From the NCBI RefSeq assembly GCF_001426245.1, contig NZ_LMCM01000008.1, positions 248,001-312,000 of the forward strand: a stretch of DNA of 64,000 bases, in the 5' to 3' direction. The notes beneath the pieces are model-generated. The model searched no databases and was not told where the DNA came from. It was given only the letters and a program-made list of their open reading frames with translations. Made by a program: the position numbers and the translations under genes. The first letter of the stretch is position 1. Each line of letters begins with the position of its first letter. Below are positions 13,374 through 31,062 of this stretch, piece after piece. Origin of the DNA: Phycicoccus sp. Root101 (GTDB taxonomy: Bacteria > Actinomycetota > Actinomycetes > Actinomycetales > Dermatophilaceae).

Positions 13374-15071
13374 TCAGCGACGCAGGACGCGGGCCTCCCA
13401 GGCGCGCAGGGGCGCAGTGACCGAGCTCGGCTCACCGACGTTGCCGAGCAGCAGCGTCGAACCGGCCCAGCCGTCGAGGTCGTCGAGCACGTCGAGGGCG
13501 AGCTCGTCGCCGGAGAAGTTGGCGACGACGAGCAGCTCGACGCCCTCGTGCGAGCGGGTGAACGCGTAGAGCGTCGGGTGGTCGGCGGCGAGCATCTGGA
13601 AGTCGCCGTGGCCGACAGCCGGCTCGGTGTGCCGCAGCTCGATCACCCGGCGGTAGTGGTGGAACACCGAGTCGTCGTCGGCGACCTCGGCCTCGGCGTT
13701 GATCTCCACGTAGTTGGGGTTGGCCCTGAACCACGGTGTGCCGGTGGTGAACCCGCCGTGGTCGGTGCTGTCCCACTGCATCGGGGAGCGCGCGTTGTCG
13801 CGGCTGCCGATCCTCAGGTTGTCCAGCACGCTGGCCGCGTCCGAACCCGACTCGACGGCCATCCGGTAGTAGTTCACCGACTCGATGTCGAGGAAGTCCT
13901 CCGACGACGCGAACGGCACGTTCGTCATACCGAGCTCTTCACCCTGGTAGACGTAGGGCGTCCCGCGGTGCAGGTGCAGGACCGTGCCGAGCAGCTTCGC
14001 GGATGCGACGCGGTGCTCGGGCGCGTCGGAGCCGAACCGAGACACCGCCCGCGGCTGGTCGTGGTTGTTCCAGTAGAGGGAGTTCCAGCCGGTCTCGGCG
14101 AGCCCCTCCTGCCAGCGGCCGAGCGACGTCTTGAGCTCGCGCAGGTCGAGGGTGCGGCGGTCCCACTTGTGGTCGCCGTGGTCGAGACCGACGTGCTCGA
14201 ACTGGAACACCATGTCGACCTCGTGCCGCTCCGGGTCGGTGTAGAGGACGGCGTCGTCCACCGTCACGCCGGGCATCTCGCCGACGGTGAGCAGCTTCTC
14301 CGCGCGCCCCTCGAAGACCGACGCGTGCATCTCCTGGAGGAACTCGTGGATGCGCGGCCCGTTCAGGAAGTGCGGCGTCCCGTCGCCGAGCCCGGGGCTG
14401 CCGGGGATCGGCTCGCCGTCGGGCAGGGACGTGACCTTGGAGATCATGTTGATGACGTCCATGCGGAACCCGTCGACGCCGCGGTCCAGCCACCAGCGCA
14501 TCATCGAGTAGACGGCTTCGCGGACCTCGGGGTTCTCCCAGTTGAGGTCGGGCTGCTTGCGGCTGAACAGGTGCAGGTAGTACTCCCCGCTGACCTCGTC
14601 GAGCTCCCAGGCCGGACCGCTGAAGAACGACTCCCAGTTGTTGGGGGCGGTCGGGGACCCGTCCGCGGACTCACCGGGGGAGCGCCACCAGTACCAGTCC
14701 CGCTTCGGGTTGTCGGTGCTCGAGCGCGACTCCACGAACCACGGGTGCTCGTCGGAGGTGTGGTTCACCACGAGGTCCATGACGATGCGTATGCCGCGCG
14801 CGTGCGCCTGCGCGATCAGCTCGTCCACGTCCGCGAGCGTCCCGAAGGTCGGGTCGATGTCCTGGTAGTCGGCGATGTCGTAGCCGTTGTCGTCCTGCGG
14901 GCTGGTGTAGATCGGCGACAGCCAGAGCACGTCGATGCCCAGGGTGTGCAGGTAGTCGAGGCGGTCGATGATGCCGCGGACGTCGCCGATGCCGTCGCCG
15001 TTGCTGTCCTGGAAGCTGCGGGGGTAGATCTGGTAGACGACGGCGTCACGGAACCACGGGGCTTCGGTCAT
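13374..15071 (-). CDS. GH13 alpha-glucosidase (oligo-1,6-glucosidase/trehalose-hydrolase type)
   Basis: A 565-aa intracellular GH13 enzyme of the subfamily with alpha-glucosidases and oligo-1,6-glucosidases. All four barrel signatures are present: DLVVNHTSDEHPWF, the nucleophile Asp205 (DGFRMDVINM), acid/base Glu265 (LTVGEMPG), and transition-state Asp338 (WNNHDQPRAVSRFG). MTEAPWFRDAVVYQIYPRSF is the standard N-terminus, so the start is 15071 rather than 20 codons upstream. CAGACT lies 7 nt before the ATG. The residue after the nucleophile is Val (MDVIN), which in this subfamily tends to mark alpha-1,6 rather than alpha-1,4 preference. No signal peptide is present. Confidence 0.93.
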   Translation of the reverse strand: MTEAPWFRDAVVYQIYPRSFQDSNGDGIGDVRGIIDRLDYLHTLGIDVLWLSPIYTSPQDDNGYDIADYQDIDPTFGTLADVDELIAQAHARGIRIVMDLVVNHTSDEHPWFVESRSSTDNPKRDWYWWRSPGESADGSPTAPNNWESFFSGPAWELDEVSGEYYLHLFSRKQPDLNWENPEVREAVYSMMRWWLDRGVDGFRMDVINMISKVTSLPDGEPIPGSPGLGDGTPHFLNGPRIHEFLQEMHASVFEGRAEKLLTVGEMPGVTVDDAVLYTDPERHEVDMVFQFEHVGLDHGDHKWDRRTLDLRELKTSLGRWQEGLAETGWNSLYWNNHDQPRAVSRFGSDAPEHRVASAKLLGTVLHLHRGTPYVYQGEELGMTNVPFASSEDFLDIESVNYYRMAVESGSDAASVLDNLRIGSRDNARSPMQWDSTDHGGFTTGTPWFRANPNYVEINAEAEVADDDSVFHHYRRVIELRHTEPAVGHGDFQMLAADHPTLYAFTRSHEGVELLVVANFSGDELALDVLDDLDGWAGSTLLLGNVGEPSSVTAPLRAWEARVLRR

Positions 15072-15193
15072 GGGCAGCAGTCTGGTCGCCGTTGCGTGGT
15101 GCGGCAAAGCCATTGCCCGGAGGTGTCGCATGCCGGATCATCAGGGACGAGCTACTCGTACCCACTGGGGGGCGGCGGGCTCGGATCGGACGG

Positions 15194-19250: not shown

Positions 19251-19661
19251 TCAGCTGGCTCGGCTGCTCGTGAGGTCGACGAAGTACTGGGCCACGTCGT
19301 AGTTCGAGATCCGCAGGGCCCCGATCCGTGGAGAGGTGCCGTGGTTGTTCTCGGCGTCCGGGTCGGCGCCGGCCGCGAGCAGGGCGAGGATGGTCTCTCC
19401 TCGACCCCGTGAGGAGGACATGGCCCGCCACAGCGGGGTGTTGCCCCACTGGTCGCGCGCCTCGAGGGCGGCCCCTGCCGCGACGAGCTCGGGCACCACG
19501 TCCGCCTGCTGGTTCTGGGCCGCGAGGTGCAGGGGGGTGTACCCGCCGGTGTCGGCGAGCGTCACGTCATACCCCTGCGCCAGCAGCTGGCGCACCAGGG
19601 CCAGGTCGCCGTCCGCAGCCGCGTAGTGGAGGTCGGTGCGACCCTCACGGTCCAGTTCCAT
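19251..19661 (-). CDS. Ankyrin-repeat protein
   Basis: A 136-aa protein made of about four ankyrin repeats: GRTDLHYAAADGDLALVRQL, GGYTPLHLAAQNQQADVVPE, WGNTPLWRAMSSSRGRGETI, and a degenerate last one (NHGTSPRIGALRISNYDVAQ). The start at 19661 (MELDREGRT) is preferred over an upstream TTG; CACCAT lies 7 nt before. It is cytoplasmic with no enzyme domain, so it is probably a protein-binding scaffold. Single small ankyrin proteins of this kind are common in actinobacteria and their partners are unknown. Confidence 0.85.
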   Translation of the reverse strand: MELDREGRTDLHYAAADGDLALVRQLLAQGYDVTLADTGGYTPLHLAAQNQQADVVPELVAAGAALEARDQWGNTPLWRAMSSSRGRGETILALLAAGADPDAENNHGTSPRIGALRISNYDVAQYFVDLTSSRAS

Positions 19662-19776
19662 GCCCCGTATGGTGCCCAAGGCCGGCTCCCCACGTGGTGG
19701 GTTTCGAGCGTTCTCAGCCGGTCGGAGGAGGTAACAGAACTCCTCGGTGGAAGTGAAGCCGGTGACCCCGGCGGCG

Positions 19777-20607
19777 CTACTGGCCGGAGGGTGCGATCGG
19801 GGTCCAGAGGACCTCGACGTGTCCCTTGCGCAGGGCGTCCGCGAGGTCGGCCGGGGGCTCCCGGTCGGTGACGAAGTAGTCGACCGCGTCGAGCGTGGTG
19901 ATCTGGGCGAACAGCCGTCGACCGAACTTCGAGGAGTCGGCCAGGATCGCCACCTTGCCTGCGCGCCCGAGCATCTCGCGCATCATCGCCGCCTCGGCAA
20001 GGTTGCTCGTGGAGTACCCGCCGTCGGTCGACACGCCCCCCACGGTCACCAGGGCGAGGTCGCAACGGATGTCCATGTCACGGCCCCCCAGCGAGACCGG
20101 GAAGGCGACGGGTCCGATGGTCGCCTGCGCCGCGTGCCGCACGTCGCCGCCGAAGAGGTAGAGGTCGCGGAAGCACTTGGGGGAGATCTCGGTGGCGAGC
20201 CGGAGGTTGTTGGTGGCGATGGTCAGGCCGCGGTGCTCGCGCAGGTGACGGGCGACGGCCAGCGCCGTGGTGCCGGCGTTGATGATGAGGACGTCGCCGT
20301 CGGTGACCAGGCTCGCGGCCGTGGCGCCGATCTGCTCCTTGGCGTCGGGGTGCACCTGGATGCGGGTGTTGAGCCCGGGGTCCATGCGCGGCATGCGGGT
20401 GGGGTCGACCGCGCCCCCGCGGGTGCGCATGACCAGACCCTCCCCGTCGAGGTGGTCCAGGTCGCGCCGGATCGTGTCGGCGGACACCTGCAGGCGCTCC
20501 GCCAGGGCCTGCACCGTGACCTGCCCCGCGTCCGCGACCAGCGCGACGATCGCGGCCTTGCGGCTGGCCGGCAGGTGCGTCGAGTCGTCCTCCATGGCGG
20601 GGAGCAT
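19777..20607 (-). CDS. DeoR-family transcriptional regulator of the sugar operon
   Basis: A 276-aa DeoR regulator. The helix-turn-helix is QALAERLQVSADTIRRDLDH with the family extension GLVMRTRGGAV; the C-terminal DeoRC sensor domain shows INAGTTALAVARHLREHRGL and KVAILADSSKFGRRLF, which bind phosphorylated sugars in this family. ATG 20607 is used; another in-frame ATG at 20595 is possible. It is divergent from the ABC/aldolase/kinase/isomerase operon and is almost certainly its repressor. The ligand should be a phosphorylated pathway intermediate. In E. coli the sulfoquinovose genes are also controlled by a DeoR protein (YihW). Confidence 0.92.
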   Translation of the reverse strand: MLPAMEDDSTHLPASRKAAIVALVADAGQVTVQALAERLQVSADTIRRDLDHLDGEGLVMRTRGGAVDPTRMPRMDPGLNTRIQVHPDAKEQIGATAASLVTDGDVLIINAGTTALAVARHLREHRGLTIATNNLRLATEISPKCFRDLYLFGGDVRHAAQATIGPVAFPVSLGGRDMDIRCDLALVTVGGVSTDGGYSTSNLAEAAMMREMLGRAGKVAILADSSKFGRRLFAQITTLDAVDYFVTDREPPADLADALRKGHVEVLWTPIAPSGQ

Positions 20608-20673
20608 ACGTGCGTTCTTGCGCTTTGTCTTACGTGTTGGTGCGGTTTCTCGCATCGAAGTGCCCTCTTCTCG

Positions 20674-20692
20674 GGCGAACTGTCTGTTCGCC
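20674..20692. promoter_or_regulatory. Palindrome, candidate operator
   Basis: GGCGAAC, TGTCT, GTTCGCC: a perfect 7-bp inverted repeat with a 5-nt centre, in the 296-bp region between the DeoR gene and the ABC operon. Confidence 0.45.
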
Positions 20693-20811
20693 GTGGGGTA
20701 TGCCGTGAGTGTGCGGATTCGTGCTCAGCGATGTGTTCCGGTGGGTGATCGGCCCGCCAGGCGGCTCGGTGCGCGGTCGTCTCACTGGGCGATTTCGCTG
20801 CGTCGAACCTC

Positions 20812-20848
20812 TTGACCATGCCGCATCCTGCGGATTAATGTCGCAGGA
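20812..20848 (+). promoter_or_regulatory. Promoter and overlapping operator of the sugar operon
   Basis: TTGACC (20812-20817) is followed 18 nt later by TAATGT (20836-20841), a good sigma-70-type promoter. The perfect inverted repeat TCCTGCG (20826-20832)/CGCAGGA (20842-20848), 9-nt centre, straddles the -10, so a bound repressor would block it. The leader to the ATG at 20904 is about 55 nt. Confidence 0.6.
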
Positions 20849-20903
20849 ACAGGCAGGAAACAGCAACTACACGCAGGCGATGGCGCCAAGGAACGGAGCA
20901 GCA

Positions 20904-22214
20904 ATGCGAGCACAGAGTCGTGCTTCACGGGTGGTGGCGGTGGTCGGGTTCGTCTCGGCGGTCAGCCTCCTCGCGGCATGCGCGGGTGGCGAGGGTGCGC
21001 CGATCGGCGCCAACGCCGACGACAACAGCACTGCGGCGGACGGCTCGGTCGTCCTGGAGTTCTCGCAGTGGTGGGAGCCCGAGCTCCCCAAGGGTTCGCT
21101 GCGCGGGATGATGGACGAGTTCGAGAAGGCGAACCCCGGCGTCAAGGTGAAGCTGATCAGCGCCCCCTACGCCTCGACCCAGCAGCAGACGGTCGCCGGT
21201 GCGGCCTCCAAGACCCTCGCCGACGTGGTCGGCCTCGACGGGGCCTGGGTCAACGACTTCTCCAAGCAGAAGGCCATCACCAACCTGACGTCCCTGATGC
21301 AGGAGTCCGGCTACGACGACTCCCAGCTGGCCAGCCAGATCAAGGTCGACGGCAACACGTACATGATCCCCGTCGTGAACTTCGTCTACCCGATGTTCAC
21401 CAACGACACCCTGCTGGCCAAGGCCGGCGTCAACGCCCCGCCCTCGACGCGCAGCGAGTTCGTCGACGCGGCCAAGAAGGTCACGGCCACCGGCAAGGGC
21501 AACTCGGGGTGGATCCTCCCGCTCGCCCAGGACGCCCCCAACGGCATCCAGAACGACGTGATGTCGTGGGTCTGGGCCTCGGGTGGCTCCATGCTCAAGG
21601 ACGGCCAGCCCGACCTGACCAACTCCTCCGTCAAGAGCGTCGTCGAGTTCATCAAGCAGCTCAACGACGCGAAGGCGATCGCGCCCGGCGCGCTGACGAT
21701 GAAGGAGCAGGACAAGGTCGAGCAGTTCACCAACGGCCGCGTCGGGATGATGATCGACTCCCTCGCCCACATCAACCTGATCCGGGAGAACGCGCCGGAC
21801 CTCAAGTTCAGCATCTCGGCGATCCCGGCTGCTGACGGCTACACGGGCAAGCGCGGGATGCCCTACGCCTCCTGGGGCATCGGCGTCTCGGAGAACAGCA
21901 AGCACAAGAAGGAAGCCCTCAAGCTCGTCGAGTTCCTGATGAGCAAGGACACCAACTCCAAGCTGTCGTCCGTGGCCAACGCCTTCCCCGGCAACAAGGA
22001 GTCCGTGCCGGACTTCGTCCAGTCGGACGCGATGTTCAAGACGGCCTTCGACATCTGGAACAAGGGTGTCCCGGCCAACGAGTTCACCGGCCTGCCGACC
22101 GCCGAGGACCTGATGCGGTCCTTCGACGGAGAGCTGCAGAAGACCTTGGCGGAGAACCAGCCCGTCGACACGACCCTGAACAACGCCCAGAAGGCGTGGT
22201 CCGCGAAGTTCTGA
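20904..22214 (+). CDS. ABC sugar-transport substrate-binding lipoprotein
   Basis: A 436-aa family 1 solute-binding protein. The ATG at 20904 has GGAACGGAG upstream and opens a lipoprotein signal peptide with lipobox LLAAC, the lipidated Cys being Cys26. The mature protein has the MalE-like start VVLEFSQWWEPELPKGSLRG and the hinge segments YASWGIGVSENSKHKKEALK and EFLMSKDTNSK. Paired Trp in QWW probably stacks on sugar. It delivers its ligand to the two permeases encoded next. No ATPase gene is in the cluster, so a shared MsiK-type ATPase elsewhere must energise import. Confidence 0.93.
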   Translation: MRAQSRASRVVAVVGFVSAVSLLAACAGGEGAPIGANADDNSTAADGSVVLEFSQWWEPELPKGSLRGMMDEFEKANPGVKVKLISAPYASTQQQTVAGAASKTLADVVGLDGAWVNDFSKQKAITNLTSLMQESGYDDSQLASQIKVDGNTYMIPVVNFVYPMFTNDTLLAKAGVNAPPSTRSEFVDAAKKVTATGKGNSGWILPLAQDAPNGIQNDVMSWVWASGGSMLKDGQPDLTNSSVKSVVEFIKQLNDAKAIAPGALTMKEQDKVEQFTNGRVGMMIDSLAHINLIRENAPDLKFSISAIPAADGYTGKRGMPYASWGIGVSENSKHKKEALKLVEFLMSKDTNSKLSSVANAFPGNKESVPDFVQSDAMFKTAFDIWNKGVPANEFTGLPTAEDLMRSFDGELQKTLAENQPVDTTLNNAQKAWSAKF

Positions 22215-22222
22215 CAGGAGGA

Positions 22223-22259
22223 GGGTGGGTCGTCGCGACGACAGCCGCACGGCCCACCC
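22223..22259 (+). promoter_or_regulatory. Intercistronic stem-loop between binding protein and permease
   Basis: GGGTGGG (22223-22229) pairs with CCCACCC (22253-22259) and encloses the palindrome TCGTCGCGACGA (22230-22241). Stem-loops at this position in sugar ABC operons stabilise the upstream message or partly stop transcription, so the binding protein is made in excess over the permeases. Confidence 0.55.
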
Positions 22260-22278
22260 GCCCCGCAGGAGGTACCCC

Positions 22279-23238
22279 GTGATCGACACCTCGATCTCAA
22301 CCGCCCCGGAGCAGCTACCGGGATCGGCGAAGGCCAAGGGACGCAAGACACCGCGCCCGCGCTCGCAGGTGATCCGCAAGCTGGAGCCCTACGGCTACCT
22401 CGCGCCGGTCATCGTCCTCATGCTCGTCCTGATGATCCTGCCGATCGCCGTCGTGATCCGGTATTCGTTGCTGGACAACGTGATCATGACGCCGACCTCA
22501 GTGGTCGTCGGGCTGAAGAACTACATCACGATCCTCAGCGACCCGGTCTACCACACGGCCATCAAGAACACGGCGGTCTTCACCGGCAGCAGCGTCCTGG
22601 CCCACCTGGTCCTCGGCCTCGGGTTCGCGATGCTGCTCAACTCGCCCCTGCTGGGCCGCTGGACCAAGACGATCTTCCGCACAATCCTCGTGATGCCGTG
22701 GCTCCTGACGGTGGCCATCATCGCCATCCTCTGGCGCCTGCTGCTCGACCCGAACGGCGTCGTCAACTACGCGCTCATCCAGGGCGGCGTCATCGACACC
22801 CCGATCGCCTGGCTCGCCGACCTCAACCTCGCCCTCCCGGCCGTCACCTTCATCAACATCTGGGCCGGCTACCCGTTCTTCATGGTCAGCCTGCTCGCCG
22901 GGCTGCAGGGCATCTCCGCCGACCTCTACGAGGCGGCGGCCGTCGACGGGGCGTCGTGGTGGCGCCGGTTCTTCCACGTCACCCTGCCGTCGCTGCGCCC
23001 GATCATCCTGAGCATGGCGCTGCTGGACATGATCTGGACCTCCCAGCAGTTCCCGTTGATCTGGATGACGACCGGCGGTGGTCCCCTGGACCGCACGGAG
23101 ATGCTCAGCACGTACACCTACAAGCTCGCGTTCAGCGAGTACCAGTTCGCCCAGGCCTCGGCCAGCGCCGTGATGCTGCTCGCCGTCGCCCTGGTCCTCG
23201 CCGTCTTCTACGTGCGGCACCAGCGAGTGAGGGACTGA
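22279..23238 (+). CDS. ABC sugar permease, MalF/UgpA type
   Basis: A 319-aa permease. GTG 22279 follows AGGAGG by 8 nt. Six transmembrane segments run from LAPVIVLMLVLMILPIAVVI to ASAVMLLAVALVLAVFYV; the cytoplasmic coupling loop carries the EAA motif (YEAAAVDGASWWRRFFHVTL). A charged N-terminal extension of about 40 residues precedes the first helix. It pairs with the next gene, whose start is 3 bp after this stop. Confidence 0.93.
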   Translation: MIDTSISTAPEQLPGSAKAKGRKTPRPRSQVIRKLEPYGYLAPVIVLMLVLMILPIAVVIRYSLLDNVIMTPTSVVVGLKNYITILSDPVYHTAIKNTAVFTGSSVLAHLVLGLGFAMLLNSPLLGRWTKTIFRTILVMPWLLTVAIIAILWRLLLDPNGVVNYALIQGGVIDTPIAWLADLNLALPAVTFINIWAGYPFFMVSLLAGLQGISADLYEAAAVDGASWWRRFFHVTLPSLRPIILSMALLDMIWTSQQFPLIWMTTGGGPLDRTEMLSTYTYKLAFSEYQFAQASASAVMLLAVALVLAVFYVRHQRVRD

Positions 23239-23240
23239 CC

Positions 23241-24095
23241 ATGACCGTCATGACGACCACCAACCCCCGCAAGAAGGCGGCCCTCAAGGCCGGCACCTGG
23301 ACGGGCCTGATCCTCGGGGCGTTGTTCGCCGGCCTCCCGGTCCTGTGGATGCTCTCGAGCTCGTTCAAGTCGAACTCCGAGATCTTCGCGTGGCCGCCGA
23401 AGCTCATCACCGAGAACTTCTCGTTCGCGGCATACACGACCGTCCTCACCGACCCGACCAAAGTGCGGTTCTTCGTCAACAGCTACGTCGTGGCCATCGC
23501 GGTCACGGTGCTGACGCTGGTCTGCGCGATCCTGGCCGCGTACGCGTTCAGCCGCTACCAGTTCCGCGGCAAGGGCCTGGTCAACGTGATCATCGTCGGC
23601 ATCCAGGCCGTCCCGCCGATCACGCTGCTCATCCCCTACTTCGGGCTGATCGTGGCGCTGCGCCTCTACAACAGCTACCAGGGCCTGGTGCTCACCTACA
23701 TGGTGTTCACGCTGCCGTACGCCATCGTCATGATGACCGGCTACTTCAACACCCTGCCGCGCGAGCTGGACGAGGCCGCACGGGTTGACGGCACCACGTC
23801 GTTCGGCGCCCTCTGGCGGATCCTCGTGCCGATCTCGTTGCCGGGCATCGTCTCGGTGGCCGTCTACACGTTCATGATCGCGTGGAACGAGTACCTCTTC
23901 GCGCTCACCCTGACCCGCACGGACAACATGCGCACGGTGCCCATCGGCATCCAGCTGCTCATGGGCCAGCACTCGTACCAGTGGACCGAGATGATGGCCA
24001 TGAGTGTGCTCGGGAGCATCCCCGTGATGGTGCTGTTCGTGTTCTTCCAGAAGTTCTTCATCGGTGGCATGACCGCTGGTGCAGTCAAGAGCTGA
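23241..24095 (+). CDS. ABC sugar permease, MalG/UgpE type
   Basis: A 284-aa permease starting at ATG 23241, 3 bp after the MalF-type stop. Six transmembrane segments and the MalG signature SSFKSNSEIFAWPP near the N-terminus are present; the EAA loop reads LDEAARVDGTTSFGALWRIL. It ends with the usual FIGGMTAGAVKS tail. Together with the preceding permease it forms the membrane channel. Confidence 0.93.
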   Translation: MTVMTTTNPRKKAALKAGTWTGLILGALFAGLPVLWMLSSSFKSNSEIFAWPPKLITENFSFAAYTTVLTDPTKVRFFVNSYVVAIAVTVLTLVCAILAAYAFSRYQFRGKGLVNVIIVGIQAVPPITLLIPYFGLIVALRLYNSYQGLVLTYMVFTLPYAIVMMTGYFNTLPRELDEAARVDGTTSFGALWRILVPISLPGIVSVAVYTFMIAWNEYLFALTLTRTDNMRTVPIGIQLLMGQHSYQWTEMMAMSVLGSIPVMVLFVFFQKFFIGGMTAGAVKS

Positions 24096-24147
24096 CCGTC
24101 GACCGTCGACGCCCAGAACCCCTCCCCACACAGAGAGAGACACACCC

Positions 24148-25011
24148 ATGCTCGTCAACGGAGTCAACCTCCTGCAGGTCGCCCGCGAGAACCAGTTCGC
24201 CGTGCCGGCCTTCAACATCAGCGACTACGCGATGATGAAGGGGATCTTCGAGATCAGCGAGGAGACCAACTCACCGCTCATCATCGCGATCCACCCCGAC
24301 GAGCAGAAGCACGTCGGTGACAGCTTCCTCCGCTCGGCGATCGACCTGGCCCTGCGCAGCCCCGTCCCGGTGGCCATCCACTGGGACCACGGCGCCAGCT
24401 ACGAGGAGTCGCTCAAGGCCATCCAGCTGGGCTTCACCTCGATGATGATCGACAAGTCGCTGGTGTCCTTCGACGAGAACGTCGCGATCACCAAGCGCGT
24501 CGTCGAGGCCGCCCACGCGGTGGGCCTCAGCGTCGAGGCCGAGCTCGGCACCATCGGCAAGGCCGATGACGAAGCCGAGGCAGGCACCGAGTACATCGTC
24601 TACACGGACCCTGAGGACGCGGTCCGATTCGTGCAGGAGACCGGTGTCGACAGCCTGGCCGTCGCGATCGGCACCTGCCACGGGCTCTACCCCGACTGGA
24701 TGAAGCCCGAGATCAAGATCGACCTGCTCGAGCAGATCGAGGCCAAGGTCTCGATCCCCCTGGTGCTGCACGGCGGTTCGGGCAACCCCGACGAGGAGAT
24801 CGCCAAGTCGGTGTCCCGCGGCATCGCGAAGATCAACATCTCCAGCGACATCAAGGTGGCCTACCACGGGAAGATGCGCGAGATGCTGGCCAACGACCCG
24901 AAGCTGCGCGAGCCCAACTCCATCCAGCCGGACTGCATCAAGGCGATGAAGGCGGCGGCGGCCCACAAGATCGAGCTGTTCAACGCCGACGGCAAAGCCT
25001 CCCTCTACTGA
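24148..25011 (+). CDS. Class II (metal-dependent) ketose-bisphosphate-type aldolase
   Basis: A 287-aa class II aldolase of the fructose/tagatose-bisphosphate family. Start MLVNGVNLLQVARENQFAVP is typical. Zinc-ligand regions are IHWDHGASYEE, AELGTIG, GTCHGLYP and VLHGGSGNPDEEI; the phosphate-binding turn is KINISSDIK. It should split a ketose-1-phosphate or ketose-bisphosphate into DHAP and an aldehyde. It is the C-C cleavage step of the operon, after the isomerase and kinase encoded downstream. The sulfofructose-1-phosphate aldolases of class II belong to the same family, so substrate cannot be decided from these motifs. A GAGAGAG tract upstream is the only ribosome site. Confidence 0.9.
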   Translation: MLVNGVNLLQVARENQFAVPAFNISDYAMMKGIFEISEETNSPLIIAIHPDEQKHVGDSFLRSAIDLALRSPVPVAIHWDHGASYEESLKAIQLGFTSMMIDKSLVSFDENVAITKRVVEAAHAVGLSVEAELGTIGKADDEAEAGTEYIVYTDPEDAVRFVQETGVDSLAVAIGTCHGLYPDWMKPEIKIDLLEQIEAKVSIPLVLHGGSGNPDEEIAKSVSRGIAKINISSDIKVAYHGKMREMLANDPKLREPNSIQPDCIKAMKAAAAHKIELFNADGKASLY

Positions 25012-25084
25012 GCCGGCCCGGCCGCAGCCGCACGACCCGCACGTCTCCCCACCTCGACCGAGTCGCCCACGGAGGACCCCGACG

Positions 25085-26377
25085 ATGACCCACCCCACCA
25101 CGGTGGCCTCCAGCACGAGCCGGACGCTCATCCCCGCGTCCGGCGTCGTGCTGGGCTTCGGGGCGGCTCTCGACTGCGAGATCCGTTGGGATGCAAGCGT
25201 CCTCAGCGACCTCGCCAGGTCGCATGGCGTGGTCCCCGACGAGCTCGTCGGCCAGCGCCCGATCTGCTCCGAACGAGACCTCGTGGTCTCGATCCTGGGC
25301 TACTTCGCCCGCAGCGCGGGTGGGGAGCGCCGGGTCGACGAGCCGGAGGTGATCGAGGAGTTCTGCGCCCGCTTCGACCGAGTGGCCTCGATCGGTGGGA
25401 CGTGCGTGCGGGCGGCGGCGGCGATGCTGCGGCTCGGCCAGCAGGCGACGGTGCACCTCGCGTTCGAGAGCGACCAGGTGCTCAGCCTCCTCCCGCCCGG
25501 TACGCAGGCGCTGGTCCCCGACGTGGACCTGCCGTCCTACCCGCACCTCGTCGTGCAGTACCCCGCCGGTGCCCGGGTGGTCACCGACCAGCTGGAACTC
25601 GTCGCGACCCGGGCCAACCGGCTGATCTACGTCAACGACCCGGCGAACGAGGAGATCGCGCTGAGTCCTGCACTCCCGTCCGCGGTCGCCGGGGCTGCTG
25701 TCTTCCTGGTCTCTGGCTTCAACGCCATGCGCAACCTCCCGGCCCTGCGCGCACGCCTGGACGTCGTGGAGGCCGCCGTCGTGCAACGCCGTGCATCCGG
25801 CACCGAGGGTGTCGTCATGTACGAGGACGCCGGGTTCCACCAGCCCGAGTTCGCGGAGGTCGTCCGCAGCCGGATGGCGCGGGTCGTCGACGTGTACAGC
25901 CTCAGCGACGAGGAGCTGGTCGACGCGGTCGCGGCCTCCGGCGCGCTCGACCTGCTGGACGCCGATGCGGTGCTCGCTGCCGTCTCGACGCTCGCCGCCC
26001 GACTCGGAGTCCCCACGGTGGTGGTCCACTCCCGGCACTGGGCGCTGGCCTTCGGCCCGACGGCCGGCCGGTACCGGGACGCCCTGGCCACCGGCACCGC
26101 TCTGGCCACCGCGCGGTACGCACACGGCGAGCTCGTCACCCACGACCACATCACCAGCGTCGCCGGTGCGAGCCCCGACCCGGCGGCGGTGGCCTTCGCC
26201 CGGCGGATCCGGGAGATCGCGGGGGAGCAGGTCACGGTCGTGGCCGTCCCCACCCTCGAGGTGCCGGACCCGACGACCGTGGGGCTCGGCGACACCTTCG
26301 TCGGCGGGTTCCTCGCAGCCTGCGCCAGACTGGTCGACGAGCAGTCCCACCCCGCGGCTGCAGGAAAGGCGCCATGA
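25085..26377 (+). CDS. ADP-dependent sugar kinase family (ADP-glucokinase/phosphofructokinase-like)
   Basis: A 430-aa ribokinase-fold protein that I assign to the ADP-dependent glucokinase/phosphofructokinase family. Evidence is the order of segments: a GGTCVRAAAAMLRLG region like the family's Gly-Gly sugar loop, VFLVSGFNAM, an acidic MYEDAGFH strand, VVVHSRHWALAFG, and the C-terminal catalytic motif TVGLGDTFVGG with general base Asp403. Known members use ADP to phosphorylate glucose at C6 or fructose-6-phosphate at C1. Here it would supply the ketose phosphate for the aldolase. GGAGG lies 10 nt before the ATG. Its stop overlaps the next start as ATGA. Such kinases are rare in bacterial sugar operons. 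Confidence 0.82.
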   Translation: MTHPTTVASSTSRTLIPASGVVLGFGAALDCEIRWDASVLSDLARSHGVVPDELVGQRPICSERDLVVSILGYFARSAGGERRVDEPEVIEEFCARFDRVASIGGTCVRAAAAMLRLGQQATVHLAFESDQVLSLLPPGTQALVPDVDLPSYPHLVVQYPAGARVVTDQLELVATRANRLIYVNDPANEEIALSPALPSAVAGAAVFLVSGFNAMRNLPALRARLDVVEAAVVQRRASGTEGVVMYEDAGFHQPEFAEVVRSRMARVVDVYSLSDEELVDAVAASGALDLLDADAVLAAVSTLAARLGVPTVVVHSRHWALAFGPTAGRYRDALATGTALATARYAHGELVTHDHITSVAGASPDPAAVAFARRIREIAGEQVTVVAVPTLEVPDPTTVGLGDTFVGGFLAACARLVDEQSHPAAAGKAP

Positions 26378-27669
26378 GCGACACGACCTCGTCCACCCCC
26401 ACCATCCCCGGTGCCGCTTCTGCAGCTGAGGTCGGAAGCGGCACCGGTACCACCCGCTGGGCCGAACGCCCGGCGCACCGGCTCTGGGTGCAGGAGCGGT
26501 TCGCGCGGATGATCGAGTTCGTCGGCCCGAGCGTCCTGCCCGGCGGTGGGTTCGCCTACCTCGGGGGTGATGGATCCCCGATGCCGGGGCGCGAGCCGTC
26601 CCTGCTGCTCACCGCCCGCATGACCCACGTGGCCGGCCTGGCCTCGGTGCTCGGCATCCCCGGCTCCGAGCGTCTGCTGGCCCACGGGCTGGCGTCCCTG
26701 GAGGGCGCCTTCCGTGACGAGGCGCACGGCGGCTGGTTCGGGACGCTGGAGCGGACCGGGCGCAAGACGGCATACGAGCACGTCCACGTCGTCCTGGCGG
26801 CGGCGTCGGCGCTGGCCGCGCAGGCCCAGGGGGCCGCGTCCGTCGGTGACCCGCAGGCCCTGGCGCGCGAGGTGACCCGAGTCGTCGAGGAGAAGTTCTG
26901 GCGTGAGGACGAGGGTGCGCTGTGCGAGTCGTGGTCGGCGACGTGGGACGACCCCGAGGAGTACCGCGGGGCGAACGCCAACATGCACGCGGTCGAGGCG
27001 TTCCTCGCGATCGGTGACGCGCTCGACGAGGACGTCTGGCACGCAAGGGCGCTGCGCATCTGCGAGCGCATCGTGAACCAGCACGCGCGTGGTCGCGACT
27101 GGCTGCTGCCCGAGCACTACGACGCGCAGTGGCAGGAGCTGCCCGACTACAACATCGACAACCCCAACGACCCCTTCCGCCCGTATGGCGCGACGTACGG
27201 CCACCTGCTCGAGTGGGCTCGCCTGCTGTGCGGCCTGCACGCCTCACCTCGCGTGCAGACCGGTCCCTGGGTGCTGGAGGCAGCCGAGGCGTTGGCGCGA
27301 AAGGCGTTGTCCGCGTGGGGAGTCGACGGCCGTGAGGGCCTGGTCTACACCGTCGACTGGGAGTCCGAGCCGGTCTCCGACGTCCGACTGCACTGGCCGA
27401 TCTGCGAGGGCATCCAGGCGACCGCGCTGCTCGGCGGGCTGACCGGTGACGACGAGTGGGAGCAGTGGTACCGCCGGCTGTGGGACCACGCAGCGGCGTA
27501 CTTCGTCGACACCACGGGCAGCTGGATCAACGAGCTCGACGAGGACATGAAGGAGGGTTTCGTGGTGTGGCCGGGACGTCCGGACGTCTACCACGCGACC
27601 GGCGCCTACATGGCGCCGCTGCTCCCCGCCTGGCCGTTCATGACGGTGGCCGCCGCCCGGCTGGGCTGA
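26374..27669 (+). CDS. AGE-family aldose-ketose isomerase, YihS-like
   Basis: A 431-aa (alpha/alpha)6-barrel protein of the N-acylglucosamine 2-epimerase family. Segments closely follow E. coli YihS (sulfoquinovose/mannose isomerase) as I remember it: TARMTHVAGLA, EEYRGANANMHAVEAFLAI, QELPDYNIDNPNDPFRPYG, GHLLEWARLL and GLVYTVDWESEPVS, then WPICEGIQA. His residues in NANMH, GHLLEW and the C-terminal DVYHATGAY are the expected catalytic set. About 20 extra residues at the N-terminus are low-complexity. It would convert the imported aldose to its ketose before the kinase step. It is coupled to the kinase gene by a 4-nt overlap. Confidence 0.88.
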   Translation: MSDTTSSTPTIPGAASAAEVGSGTGTTRWAERPAHRLWVQERFARMIEFVGPSVLPGGGFAYLGGDGSPMPGREPSLLLTARMTHVAGLASVLGIPGSERLLAHGLASLEGAFRDEAHGGWFGTLERTGRKTAYEHVHVVLAAASALAAQAQGAASVGDPQALAREVTRVVEEKFWREDEGALCESWSATWDDPEEYRGANANMHAVEAFLAIGDALDEDVWHARALRICERIVNQHARGRDWLLPEHYDAQWQELPDYNIDNPNDPFRPYGATYGHLLEWARLLCGLHASPRVQTGPWVLEAAEALARKALSAWGVDGREGLVYTVDWESEPVSDVRLHWPICEGIQATALLGGLTGDDEWEQWYRRLWDHAAAYFVDTTGSWINELDEDMKEGFVVWPGRPDVYHATGAYMAPLLPAWPFMTVAAARLG

Positions 27670-27762: not shown

Positions 27763-30700
27763 ATGTCGGACCGTCGAAGCGGGGATGCCATGGCCGAGGA
27801 GCAGGGTTCGGGCGAGGGAGAGGCACGCCGTCCGCCTCGACCAAGGGACCGTGGCCAGGGCAGGGCCGGTCCGGCGCCGTCACCCTCGGGCAGCTCCTCG
27901 AGCATGCCCGCGCTGGACCCGACCCAGATGGTCGAACGCGACTGGCTGCACGTCGGTCGACCCGGCAAGGCCCTCGAGGACCGCGCCATCGAGGTGGAGA
28001 TCCGCACAGCGCGCAAGGTCTGGGCCGTCGTCGCGGCGTTCACCCTGGTCCTGCTGCTGCTCAGCCTGCTCCGCGCGACCGGAGTCCTCCCGCTCGGGGA
28101 GGTGCGCCTCGCCGAGGGCGAGTCACGCGTGCCGGTGGAGGACGGCGACAGCCCGTGGCCCCGGGCCATGCTCGCCCTCCTCCTGCTGCAGGTGGCGACC
28201 CAGTTCGTCCTGGTCCTGCTGGTCGTCGAGCACCGCTACACCGCCGGGAGCACACGGGTCGGGGCCCGCAGGGTCGTGGAGAAGCCAGCCGCGAAGCATC
28301 CGTCGTTCAGCTCGTCGGTGCGAACCCTGCGCGGCTGGGTCCGCGCGACCCCGGCGCCGCCCCGGATCAAGGTCCTGCGCCTGGTCCTCCTCGTCCTGGT
28401 GGGCGCCGCGGTGGGGATCGACTGGGCCCGGTTGTCGTGGTGGCACACCGTCGTCATCGGTGCGGTCGCTGAGGTCACAGCCGCCGCGGCATACCTGCTC
28501 ACCGTCCGTGGGCTCGCGGACCGGCGCCGGGAGCTGCCCGGGACCGGGGGAGGTGCGCCACCGGCCGGAGCCCCACCCACCGGGACCACCGCCGTGGTCG
28601 ACACCCGAGACGCCGGGCCGCTCGCGATCGGTGCCTCCGGCGGTGGCATCCGCGCGACGGCGTTCGCCCTCGGGGGGATGCACGCGCTGCAGGACCACGC
28701 CAAGGAGCTCGGCCTCGACCGGGTCGAGGACGAGCCGGCGATCTTCGCCGTCAGCGGTGGCAGCTACATGGGCGCTGCGCTGGCCCTGCGGCGCCGCTTC
28801 GCCGGGGACGGCTCGCCGGTTCCCCCGATCCCGTGGACGCAGAGCTACCGGCCGAACTCGTCGGAGATCGAGCGGCTGCGTCGACACACCCGCTACCTGT
28901 TCGAGCCAGTGGCCCGATGGCGGGACGGGTTGGTCAGCCTCGTGCTCGGCGCATCGGTCAACGTCATCGTCGTCGGCCTGACGCTGCTGTTCGCGACGTT
29001 GGTCAGTGCGACTCTTGCCGTGACGGTGGGTTTCGTTGCAGCCCATCGGGTTTCACGAGTGGTGGACAACACCCCTGTCGTGCTGGTGGACGGGCTGCAG
29101 CTGGCTCCCTCGTGGGGCACCGGGCAGTGGCTGGGCCTGCTCAGCGTGCCCATCGCCTGCCTCGTCGTTTTGGTCGGGCTGACCGTGTGGGACTGGAGGG
29201 GGACGGCGGTCTTCGACGACACGGATCCCGACCAGCCGCAACGCGATGAGACCATCGCGACGCGAGACAAGGTGGCGCGCTGGCGTCCCCTCGTCCTCGG
29301 GGTGGCCGCGGTCTGGCTGGCTGTCGTCGCGGGGCTGCCGGCCGCCCTGGTGGGGGTGACGACCCTGACCACGAGCAACAAGCCGACCACCCTCGGCGCG
29401 GCGGCACTGAGCGGCCTGGGGTTCGGGACCCGCAGCATCTGCGAGGAAGCGGCATCGCAGAACATCGCCAAGGCCGTCAGCAAGGTCAGCCTCGAGGCCC
29501 GGATCAGCCCCGACGAGGCACGCAGTGTCGATGCCGGGGCGTGCGGGTACGAGACCGAGGTGACCCGGACGCTGGTCACCAAGGGCGACAAGGACCCCGC
29601 CAACGACGTGCTGCTGAAAGGGGACGACCAGGCGGCGCGGGACCTGGCCGGCGCCACCCGCGTCTCGGTCCAGATCGGTGGCATCTCGGGGCTGTTCCTC
29701 GCGGTCATCGGGCTGCTCCGGCGAGGCCCGTCACCCGAGGCGGCGGCCGAGGCGAATCTGATGGCGCGGGTCAAGCGGTACCTGCTGACCTGGCTTCCGC
29801 TCGCGATCGTGGGACTGGTCGCCGTGTACCTCCAGCTGTTGTGGATGTTCCACTACCTGATCGAGCTCAAGGGTCCCTTCACGCCGACGTTCGTGGCGTG
29901 GAGCGCGCTGCTCGTCGCTGTGGCGTGCTTGCTCGCCTACCTCGTCGACGCCAACGCGACCTCGATGCACGGCTTCTACCGGGCGCGGCTGGCGGACGCG
30001 TTCTGCGTGGGGATCGACGCGACCACGGGCCGTGCCGTCGAGCTGCCACCCGCGCAGGTGTACCGCTACTCCGACCTCGACGGCATCGGGCTCAACATCG
30101 TCGCGACGCTCAACTCCAAGGCCCCGAACGAGGCGCCGACGATGCGCGGCGGGTTCCCGGTCGTGTTCGGACCACAAGGGATCCGCGTCTTCCGGGAGGA
30201 GGGCACCACGGTGACGGTCCCGATGCGGGAGTACGAGGACTTCGCCGGCGCCGGTCGCACGTCCGTGATGGCGTCGGTCGCGATCAGCGGCGCCGCCATC
30301 TCGCCACTGATGGGGCGCTTCGGCATCCAGATGGCGCCGTACCGGTTGCTGCTCACCCTGTTCAACCTCCGCGTCGGCACGTGGGTGCGCAACCCGCTCC
30401 ACACCCACACCCCGGTCCTGGAGCGGCCGAAGGGCTGGCTGTGGCTCACGAGCAAGCCCGGTCTGACGAAGATCGCGGTGGAGGCCGCGGGGCGGCTGTC
30501 GGCAGACGACCGGTGGATCTACCTCAGCGACGGTGGGCACCTGGACAACACAGGACTGGTCGAGTGCGTGCGCCAGCACGTCACCTCGGGTGGTGATGCG
30601 GCCCGGCGGATCCTCATCTTCGACGCGAGCAACGACCCGCCGCAGTCGTGGTCCGCCGTCGGCGACGCCATCGCCGTCGTCCGGGCCGACCTCGACATCG

Positions 30701-31062
30701 ACCTCCAGCGGCAGATGATCGAGGACGAGCCGCCGTGGTTGCGCTGCTACCGCGATCCCCGCGGCCTCGAAGTGGTGGTGGTGAAGTCCGTCCGCGTCGA
30801 GCCGCCAGCCGCGGGGGCGACCGGCGTCGACTGGAACGCCGCGCTCCCGCCGAACGTGCAGTCGTTCCAGATCAACAACAAGGACTTCCCCCGCGCGCCG
30901 ACAGCGCGGCAGAAGTTCGGCGACCTCGAGTTCGAGGCCTACCGCGGCCTCGGGTATGCCGCGACCGTCACCTCGCTGCGCATGTGCCACTGGATCCCCG
31001 GAGCACCGCGGCGGTCCACCGCGCGGCCGAGGCCACAGCCGCACATCGCCGGGCTCCCCTGA
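27763..31062 (+). CDS. Patatin-like phospholipase domain membrane protein
   Basis: A 1099-aa protein. Residues about 80-240 hold three or four transmembrane helices. The patatin start follows: oxyanion loop GASGGGIRATAFALGG (about 290) and nucleophile region AVSGGSYMGAALAL (about 330), read as G-G-S-Y-M-G rather than strict G-x-S-x-G. Then come some six further hydrophobic segments (about 385-740), and only at about residue 922 the expected catalytic Asp in SDGGHLDNTGLVE. So the lipase domain is split by a membrane region. I infer acyl hydrolase activity at the membrane. ATG 27763 is used; ATG 27790 is an alternative. No partner genes are evident. Confidence 0.85.
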   Translation: MSDRRSGDAMAEEQGSGEGEARRPPRPRDRGQGRAGPAPSPSGSSSSMPALDPTQMVERDWLHVGRPGKALEDRAIEVEIRTARKVWAVVAAFTLVLLLLSLLRATGVLPLGEVRLAEGESRVPVEDGDSPWPRAMLALLLLQVATQFVLVLLVVEHRYTAGSTRVGARRVVEKPAAKHPSFSSSVRTLRGWVRATPAPPRIKVLRLVLLVLVGAAVGIDWARLSWWHTVVIGAVAEVTAAAAYLLTVRGLADRRRELPGTGGGAPPAGAPPTGTTAVVDTRDAGPLAIGASGGGIRATAFALGGMHALQDHAKELGLDRVEDEPAIFAVSGGSYMGAALALRRRFAGDGSPVPPIPWTQSYRPNSSEIERLRRHTRYLFEPVARWRDGLVSLVLGASVNVIVVGLTLLFATLVSATLAVTVGFVAAHRVSRVVDNTPVVLVDGLQLAPSWGTGQWLGLLSVPIACLVVLVGLTVWDWRGTAVFDDTDPDQPQRDETIATRDKVARWRPLVLGVAAVWLAVVAGLPAALVGVTTLTTSNKPTTLGAAALSGLGFGTRSICEEAASQNIAKAVSKVSLEARISPDEARSVDAGACGYETEVTRTLVTKGDKDPANDVLLKGDDQAARDLAGATRVSVQIGGISGLFLAVIGLLRRGPSPEAAAEANLMARVKRYLLTWLPLAIVGLVAVYLQLLWMFHYLIELKGPFTPTFVAWSALLVAVACLLAYLVDANATSMHGFYRARLADAFCVGIDATTGRAVELPPAQVYRYSDLDGIGLNIVATLNSKAPNEAPTMRGGFPVVFGPQGIRVFREEGTTVTVPMREYEDFAGAGRTSVMASVAISGAAISPLMGRFGIQMAPYRLLLTLFNLRVGTWVRNPLHTHTPVLERPKGWLWLTSKPGLTKIAVEAAGRLSADDRWIYLSDGGHLDNTGLVECVRQHVTSGGDAARRILIFDASNDPPQSWSAVGDAIAVVRADLDIDLQRQMIEDEPPWLRCYRDPRGLEVVVVKSVRVEPPAAGATGVDWNAALPPNVQSFQINNKDFPRAPTARQKFGDLEFEAYRGLGYAATVTSLRMCHWIPGAPRRSTARPRPQPHIAGLP

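Follow-up and report, generated by a model that had tools for sequence, protein, structure and literature searches.

The question raised by the locus described here is which sugar it serves to break down. It is a seven-gene operon of the actinobacterium Phycicoccus sp. Root101, located in a 64,000-nucleotide stretch of DNA (contig NZ_LMCM01000008.1, positions 248,001 to 312,000; assembly GCF_001426245.1) which was analysed as a whole and is referred to as the window. The genes encode, in this order, a divergently oriented DeoR-family regulator, a binding lipoprotein and two permeases of an ABC importer, a class II aldolase, a sugar kinase of the PF04587 family and an isomerase of the AGE superfamily. 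An earlier note, made from the sequence alone, had claimed this gene content, with no ATPase in the importer, and had proposed a variant of the sulfoglycolytic Embden-Meyerhof-Parnas (sulfo-EMP) pathway, naming the conversion of mannose to fructose and fructose-1-phosphate as the main alternative. The gene content was confirmed by coordinates and Pfam scores: all seven frames were open and each product scored over its Pfam cut-off. The kinase and AGE genes overlap by four bases. As to the substrate, the results supported the note's alternative, and the chances were judged even that free D-mannose or D-lyxose is converted to a ketose, to ketose-1-phosphate and finally to dihydroxyacetone phosphate (DHAP) and an aldehyde.

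The operon proved to be a genuine and conserved module for sugar use. In a family set of 186 genomes, the source genome included, the kinase was matched in 7 genomes and at full length in 6 of these, the source genome being one. All five full-length relatives showed these seven genes in unchanged order; therefore, the operon is not a product of chance. In genome G178 (L014:13378-13995), only the C-terminal parts of the DeoR and binding proteins matched, the two parts abutting and the enzyme genes being retained, as if a single deletion had taken both gene starts together with the control region. One genome per species was also scanned, which gave 158 relatives, of which 80 loci (L018-L097) were kept; all the counts out of 80 refer to these. 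According to the record titles, 74 were actinobacterial, 3 were from spirochaetes and 3 from Anaerolineae. The kinase and aldolase genes were adjacent and co-directional in 80/80 loci. Permease 1, permease 2 and the binding protein were detected in 75, 76 and 72 loci, respectively (permease 2 of L032 with 26% identity only), and a DeoR homologue in 71; many of the loci in which importer or DeoR genes were missed lie on short contigs. In the Anaerolineae versions L036 and L038, the stretch contained no DeoR homologue and an RpiR-type regulator (HTH_6 and SIS) followed the kinase gene. When 396 genomes across the phylum were searched with the kinase alignment, only the source genome was matched, which makes the distribution of the module patchy. 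No match was obtained among 72,556 plasmid records, and no description of this operon was found in a literature search. The designation of the locus as an isomerase-kinase-aldolase sugar operon is thus supported by its gene content and by the conserved module.

ADP-dependent sugar kinases are known mainly as archaeal glycolytic enzymes, with the addition of an animal glucokinase. The kinase of the operon scored 74.0 bits with PF04587 (ADP_PFK_GK; cut-off 27), and its only NCBIfam match, under the cut-off, was ADP-dependent glucokinase. In a Foldseek search with the AlphaFold2 model (pLDDT 91.5), the top 22 chains were all ADP-dependent kinases, and other ribokinase-fold proteins followed only after a jump from 2e-17 to 4e-9. 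The residues of the kinase and the aldolase were counted in 81 alignment rows; in L043, L044 and L057, the longest stop-free piece was used as the kinase, and no row was dropped. The kinase positions were mapped by printed profile alignments onto the AncMsPFK numbering (Q244 unmapped), and the roles were taken from PMC7948494. The catalytic residues and most residues of the nucleotide site were kept: the equivalents of R206, D36, E90, H360, the HxE Glu, the NxxE Glu and the GxGD Asp were present in 81/81 rows. These include, according to that source, the Arg at the ADP beta-phosphate, the sugar Asp, the glucokinase Glu and the ribose His. Asp403, placed by the earlier note in the sequence GLGD, was indeed found there and is D in 81/81 rows. 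Judged from profile, fold and nucleotide-site residues, the kinase is a member of the ADP-dependent family, as had been claimed, and ADP is probably its phosphoryl donor.

The positions that hold the phosphate of fructose-6-phosphate (F6P) were mostly occupied differently. N32 was G in 80/81 rows and R212 was D in 81/81; N181 was His in 80/81, as in an ADP-glucokinase, and K179 was replaced by D (40 rows), Y (32), E (5), H (2), R (1) and N (1). At N34, Asn was found in 6/81. With N32, K179, N181 and R212 not kept, the 6-phosphate site of ADP-phosphofructokinases is, by alignment, missing from the kinase, the pocket of which resembles that of ADP-glucokinase (E81, H154). Thr106 and Arg109 were invariant (Arg109 in 81/81 rows) and are new relative to the ADP-dependent kinases.

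The aldolase scored 398.5 bits with PRK08185 (cut-off 405). D80, H81, H178 and H208 were kept in all the rows with a letter (78, 78, 79 and 80 of 81, respectively; the rest were gaps). Where bisphosphate aldolases read DPR(K/Y)Y, the aldolase reads REP[N/L]xIQP, with further variants in few rows. The Arg of this C-terminal DPR motif, which we take to bind the 6-phosphate, was present in none of the 80 lettered rows (N 61, L 16, M 2, D 1, gap 1). This bears on an ordinary hexose entry, in which the kinase would produce a 6-phosphate, the host phosphofructokinase would form fructose-1,6-bisphosphate and the operon aldolase would split it. The glucokinase-like pocket and the sole NCBIfam match of the kinase, although under its cut-off, agree with such a route, as glucokinases phosphorylate C6. 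However, an aldolase without the DPR Arg does not fit a bisphosphate substrate, and a dedicated aldolase would be redundant, which makes this entry improbable.

The clearest indication of the substrate came from the isomerase. The source genome has a single AGE protein and a single PF04587 protein, and an AGE isomerase is the exception among the related loci (5/80). The loci were surveyed by tblastn with queries taken from the loci themselves, by which more distant isomerases can be missed. A short class I mannose-6-phosphate isomerase (PMI)-like protein was detected in 38/80 loci, a second PMI-like cupin in 6/80 and a D-lyxose/D-mannose isomerase in 1/80 (PF07385, 335 bits; the NCBIfam D-lyxose/D-mannose isomerase profile gave 281.9, under the cut-off of 350). 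Altogether, 50/80 loci carry one of the four families, no locus carries two, and an RbsD/FucU mutarotase is added in three. In the AGE tree (24 rows), the proteins of L052 and L083 fell on a different branch from the window AGE, the deep forks being moderately supported. The two AGE branches and the exchange of families are a clue to repeated recruitment of D-mannose/D-lyxose-type isomerases, the common chemistry of which we assume to be the conversion of D-mannose or D-lyxose to the ketose. Among the observations made, this one points most strongly to the substrate; it concerns the chemistry and is not a proof. With four families exchanging in this place, a small number of testable candidates is left for the substrate.

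Six of the 38 short PMIs were aligned with E. coli ManA. The metal residues Q, H, E and H were kept, and the Arg of NVLRAGL, presumably the 6-phosphate-binding residue of ManA, was absent. The kinase, the aldolase and the tested short PMIs all being devoid of 6-phosphate residues, the module fits sugars without a 6-phosphate. The second PMI-like cupin (L058:2558-3835 and five relatives; 426 residues) adjoins the module in Propionibacteriaceae-type genomes, and hhalign related it with 90% to the short-PMI alignment (7 rows, one of them E. coli ManA) and with 11% to ManA alone. In L037 (10293-12145) and L057 (Promicromonospora), two of the 22 isomerase-free loci with long flanks considered below, a TIM-barrel sugar isomerase-like protein and a Gfo/Idh/MocA oxidoreductase follow the kinase.

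The missing 6-phosphate residues are compatible with an unmodified as well as with a modified carbon 6. The same three steps could thus act on another 6-modified D-gluco or D-manno sugar (a uronate, a 6-deoxy or a 6-O-substituted hexose) and yield DHAP and a modified three-carbon aldehyde. Inositol breakdown, in which the isomerase IolB, the kinase IolC and the class II aldolase IolJ lead to DHAP and an acid aldehyde, is a precedent, and the invariant Arg109 together with enzymes free of 6-phosphate recognition residues would suit such a substrate. In contrast, no gene for the modified three-carbon product was recognised among the recurring neighbours, most of which are unannotated, and isomerases of the mannose/lyxose type recur; a 6-modified sugar was therefore considered unlikely, about one case in five.

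For the mannose/lyxose route, we infer the substrate, the phosphorylated carbon, the phosphoryl donor, the regulation and the fate of the aldehyde as follows. The importer would take up an aldose of D-manno configuration in unphosphorylated form, D-mannose being the most likely and D-lyxose a possible one, and the AGE isomerase would convert it to D-fructose or D-xylulose. The free ketose would be phosphorylated on C1 by the kinase, probably with ADP, and the aldolase would cleave the ketose-1-phosphate to DHAP and unphosphorylated glyceraldehyde or glycolaldehyde. The DeoR protein would act as a repressor until the sugar arrives. Two glycerate kinases are encoded in the genome and would allow the use of glyceraldehyde via glycerate, which is not specific to this route.

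Several points weigh against this route. The activities of its enzymes are predictions from sequence. The host already has a protein of the PGI/PMI type (PGI, glucose-6-phosphate isomerase) for ordinary mannose use; such a protein was found in 11/11 genomes checked and a type I PMI in 0/11. PMI-type enzymes normally use a 6-phosphate substrate. The second PMI-like cupin had no Pfam, NCBIfam or meaningful PDB sequence match, and its structure model (pLDDT 33.7) was discarded. None of the four isomerase families was detected in 30/80 loci, 22 of which have flanks of no less than 5.5 kb on the left side of the kinase and 2 kb on its right side; in these, isomerisation may be dispensable or the sugar may be a ketose. 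The HxE His of the kinase was replaced by Y, F, M, I or V in 81/81 rows, and because the full HxE motif is absent, the kinase was filed as a divergent branch of the ADP-dependent phosphofructokinase/glucokinase family. Finally, depending on one gap, Arg109 aligns with I119 or M120, in or beside the sugar pocket, where it could bind an anionic substituent of the substrate; in PMC7948494, position 119 is at most 5 Å from F6P.

An anionic group on the sugar leads back to sulfoquinovose. In a variant sulfo-EMP pathway, the AGE isomerase would convert sulfoquinovose to sulfofructose, the kinase would form sulfofructose-1-phosphate and the aldolase would release DHAP and sulfolactaldehyde (SLA). The resemblance of the AGE protein to E. 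coli YihS, on which the earlier note relied, was reproduced: the identity is 39%, and the invariant residues of YihS, to which we ascribe catalytic roles, are shared. However, E. coli YihS and the YihS homologues from three YihT clusters of actinobacteria (58–61% identical to it) formed a clade supported by 99/100, and the six window-clade AGE rows were placed outside it. In these six rows, N stands in place of Q362 and L/I in place of R215, two residues of the YihS clade (E. coli numbering). The NCBIfam D-mannose isomerase profile was rejected as a discriminator, E. coli YihS scoring higher (500.9 bits) than the window AGE (420.7) and both being under the cut-off of 600.

Like the operon aldolase, PDB entries 8q57 and 8q58, which we take to be SqiA, lack the DPR Arg; they have in common a C-terminal VSLGxGRD stretch, which is absent from the operon aldolase. 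The sulfo-EMP2 pathway (SqvD, SqiK, SqiA) thus resembles the operon in a class II aldolase without that Arg and differs in its FucI-like isomerase, its PfkA kinase and, assuming the identity of SqiA, the VSLGxGRD stretch. The sulfo-EMP pathway of E. coli and Arthrobacter (YihS, YihV, YihT) shares with the operon an AGE isomerase, a ribokinase-fold ketose kinase, a DHAP-yielding aldolase and a DeoR regulator. In contrast to it, the operon has a PF04587 instead of a PfkB kinase, a class II instead of a class I aldolase and an AGE protein of another clade, and it contains no sulfoquinovosidase, mutarotase, SLA reductase or dehydrogenase, or exporter.

Among 396 genomes of the order, E. coli YihT was matched in 45; the ten strongest matches were 48–55% identical and included two genomes of the window's genus, G147 and G143. 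Of 12 YihT loci, 10 also encoded importer permeases and proteins like YihV and CsqR, and 8 had an aldehyde dehydrogenase in the stretch. Sulfo-EMP clusters are therefore probable in other species of the genus. The loci of G147 and G143 (L111 and L112) contain CsqR-like and YihV-like genes, YihT of 52–54% identity, an importer, a GH31 gene and an aldehyde dehydrogenase. As no YihS homologue was found in either stretch, sulfoquinovose is probably isomerised in these genomes by an enzyme of a different family. In the six genomes with the window-type operon, YihT-like proteins were of 30–34% identity (four genomes) or not detected (two); the best match in the source genome was 31–32%. Mutual exclusion of the operon and YihT clusters, suggested by these six carriers without and G147 and G143 with YihT, was rejected because the set is too small. 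A search at E 1e-6 found homologues of neither YihT nor YihU in the related loci (0/80 each), and YihV was found in 1/80 (30% identity, 3.6 kb from the kinase). An aldehyde dehydrogenase was present in 2/80, compared with 8/12 of the YihT loci, with 31–32% identity: in L033 beside the DeoR gene and in L034 on the opposite strand, 1.6 kb beyond the isomerase gene. The search for a sulfoquinovosidase, which covered YihQ and not GH188, gave 24–33% matches in 8/8 genomes, whether or not these had a YihT cluster, and was uninformative as a sign of sulfoquinovose use.

Arg109 could hold the sulfonate, the aldehyde dehydrogenase of L033 adjoins the module, and the module could represent another solution, in which the SLA enzyme is encoded elsewhere. 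A class II aldolase serves in sulfo-EMP2 according to PMC9594981, and PMC12890257 describes hybrid sulfo-EMP1/2 combinations in Actinobacteria. The clade of the AGE isomerase, the changed Q362 and R215, the missing stretch of the aldolase, the loci devoid of YihT and YihU and the substitution of mannose/lyxose-type isomerases nevertheless speak for another substrate. From the sequence comparisons, sulfoquinovose appears unlikely as the substrate but not impossible, and the probability of the sulfo-EMP variant as a whole was set low, near one in eight. The product logic of the proposal, the predicted cleavage of a ketose-1-phosphate to DHAP, was supported; sulfoquinovose as the substrate was not. 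The label of sulfoglycolysis, unsupported here, should not be used for this operon without assays, which is also a warning that YihS-like genes are not to be called sulfoglycolytic without checks of clade and neighbours.

The features of the operon are collected in Table 1. The best NCBIfam profiles of the regulator were of the GlpR/AgaR types, all 15 listed scoring under the cut-off. In 69 intergenic regions like that in front of the operon, TGCCGCA occurred on either strand in 32, CTTGACG in 24 and CCTTGAC in 23 (shuffled maximum 13); words were thus enriched in these regions, and no shared DeoR operator was established among them. The binding protein probably starts at 20904, as a lipoprotein; its open frame already runs from 20709. 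Its similarity to solved binding proteins was weak (best 67.7 bits), with SmoF, the binder of sulfoquinovosyl-glycerol, in twelfth place at 48.3 bits, and uninformative. No ATPase was found among the seven operon genes; the rest of the window and the genome were not searched for one.

Table 1. Features of the sugar operon and its control region (positions in the window).
Feature	Positions	Strand	Description
DeoR-family regulator	19777..20655	-	divergent from operon; Pfam DeoRC 135.8 bits, HTH_DeoR
Promoter-like stretch	20812..20839	+	TTGACC, 16-base spacer, ATTAAT; read from sequence
Inverted repeat CCGCA-TCC-TGCGG	20821-20833		between TTGACC and ATTAAT; possible operator
Sugar-binding lipoprotein of ABC importer	20904..22214	+	SBP_bac_1 125.7 bits
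ABC importer permease 1	22225..23238	+	BPD_transp_1 64.3 bits
ABC importer permease 2	23241..24095	+	BPD_transp_1 68.7 bits
Class II aldolase	24148..25011	+	F_bP_aldolase 302.7 bits; FBA family, PRK08185-like; predicted ketose-1-phosphate aldolase
ADP-PFK/GK-family sugar kinase	25085..26377	+	PF04587; predicted to phosphorylate free ketose at C1
AGE-superfamily aldose-ketose isomerase	26374..27669	+	GlcNAc_2-epim 300.3 bits; YihS-like, outside sulfoquinovose-isomerase clade

A small ankyrin-repeat protein (19251-19679) is encoded directly downstream of the DeoR gene, and a GH13 alpha-amylase-family enzyme (13374-15131) lies close to the operon with no clear connection. On the other side, a frame of 1099 residues (27763-31062) had no Pfam match; it contains AVSGGSYMG, later DGGHLDNTG, and long hydrophobic segments, the two motifs seeming to us reminiscent of patatin-like lipases.

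The operon kinase resembles the archaeal and animal ADP-dependent glucokinases and phosphofructokinases in the fold, the GxGD Asp, the Glu residues of HxE and NxxE and the Arg at the ADP beta-phosphate. It differs from them in its low identity (14–19% in the Foldseek alignments), the absent phosphate site for F6P, the replaced HxE His, the invariant Thr106 and Arg109 and its place in a bacterial catabolic operon. In animal fructolysis, ketohexokinase and aldolase B convert a ketose via ketose-1-phosphate to DHAP and an aldehyde, as proposed for the operon, in which the kinase branch is unrelated, the aldolase is metal-dependent and an isomerase step is added. The operon might, tentatively and with odds of about one in three, correspond in bacteria to animal fructolysis, as a route not described before for a free D-mannose-type sugar with an ADP-using C1 ketose kinase, a class II ketose-1-phosphate aldolase and an isomerase recruited independently from four families. 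If this is true, the ADP-dependent kinase family would have a third activity beside the glucokinases and phosphofructokinases, and this kinase would possibly be the first of its kind assigned to an actinobacterial catabolic operon. With this kinase coupled to a ketose-1-phosphate aldolase, the family would gain a substrate and a reaction, and it would have to be asked for what reason an aerobic soil bacterium expends ADP.

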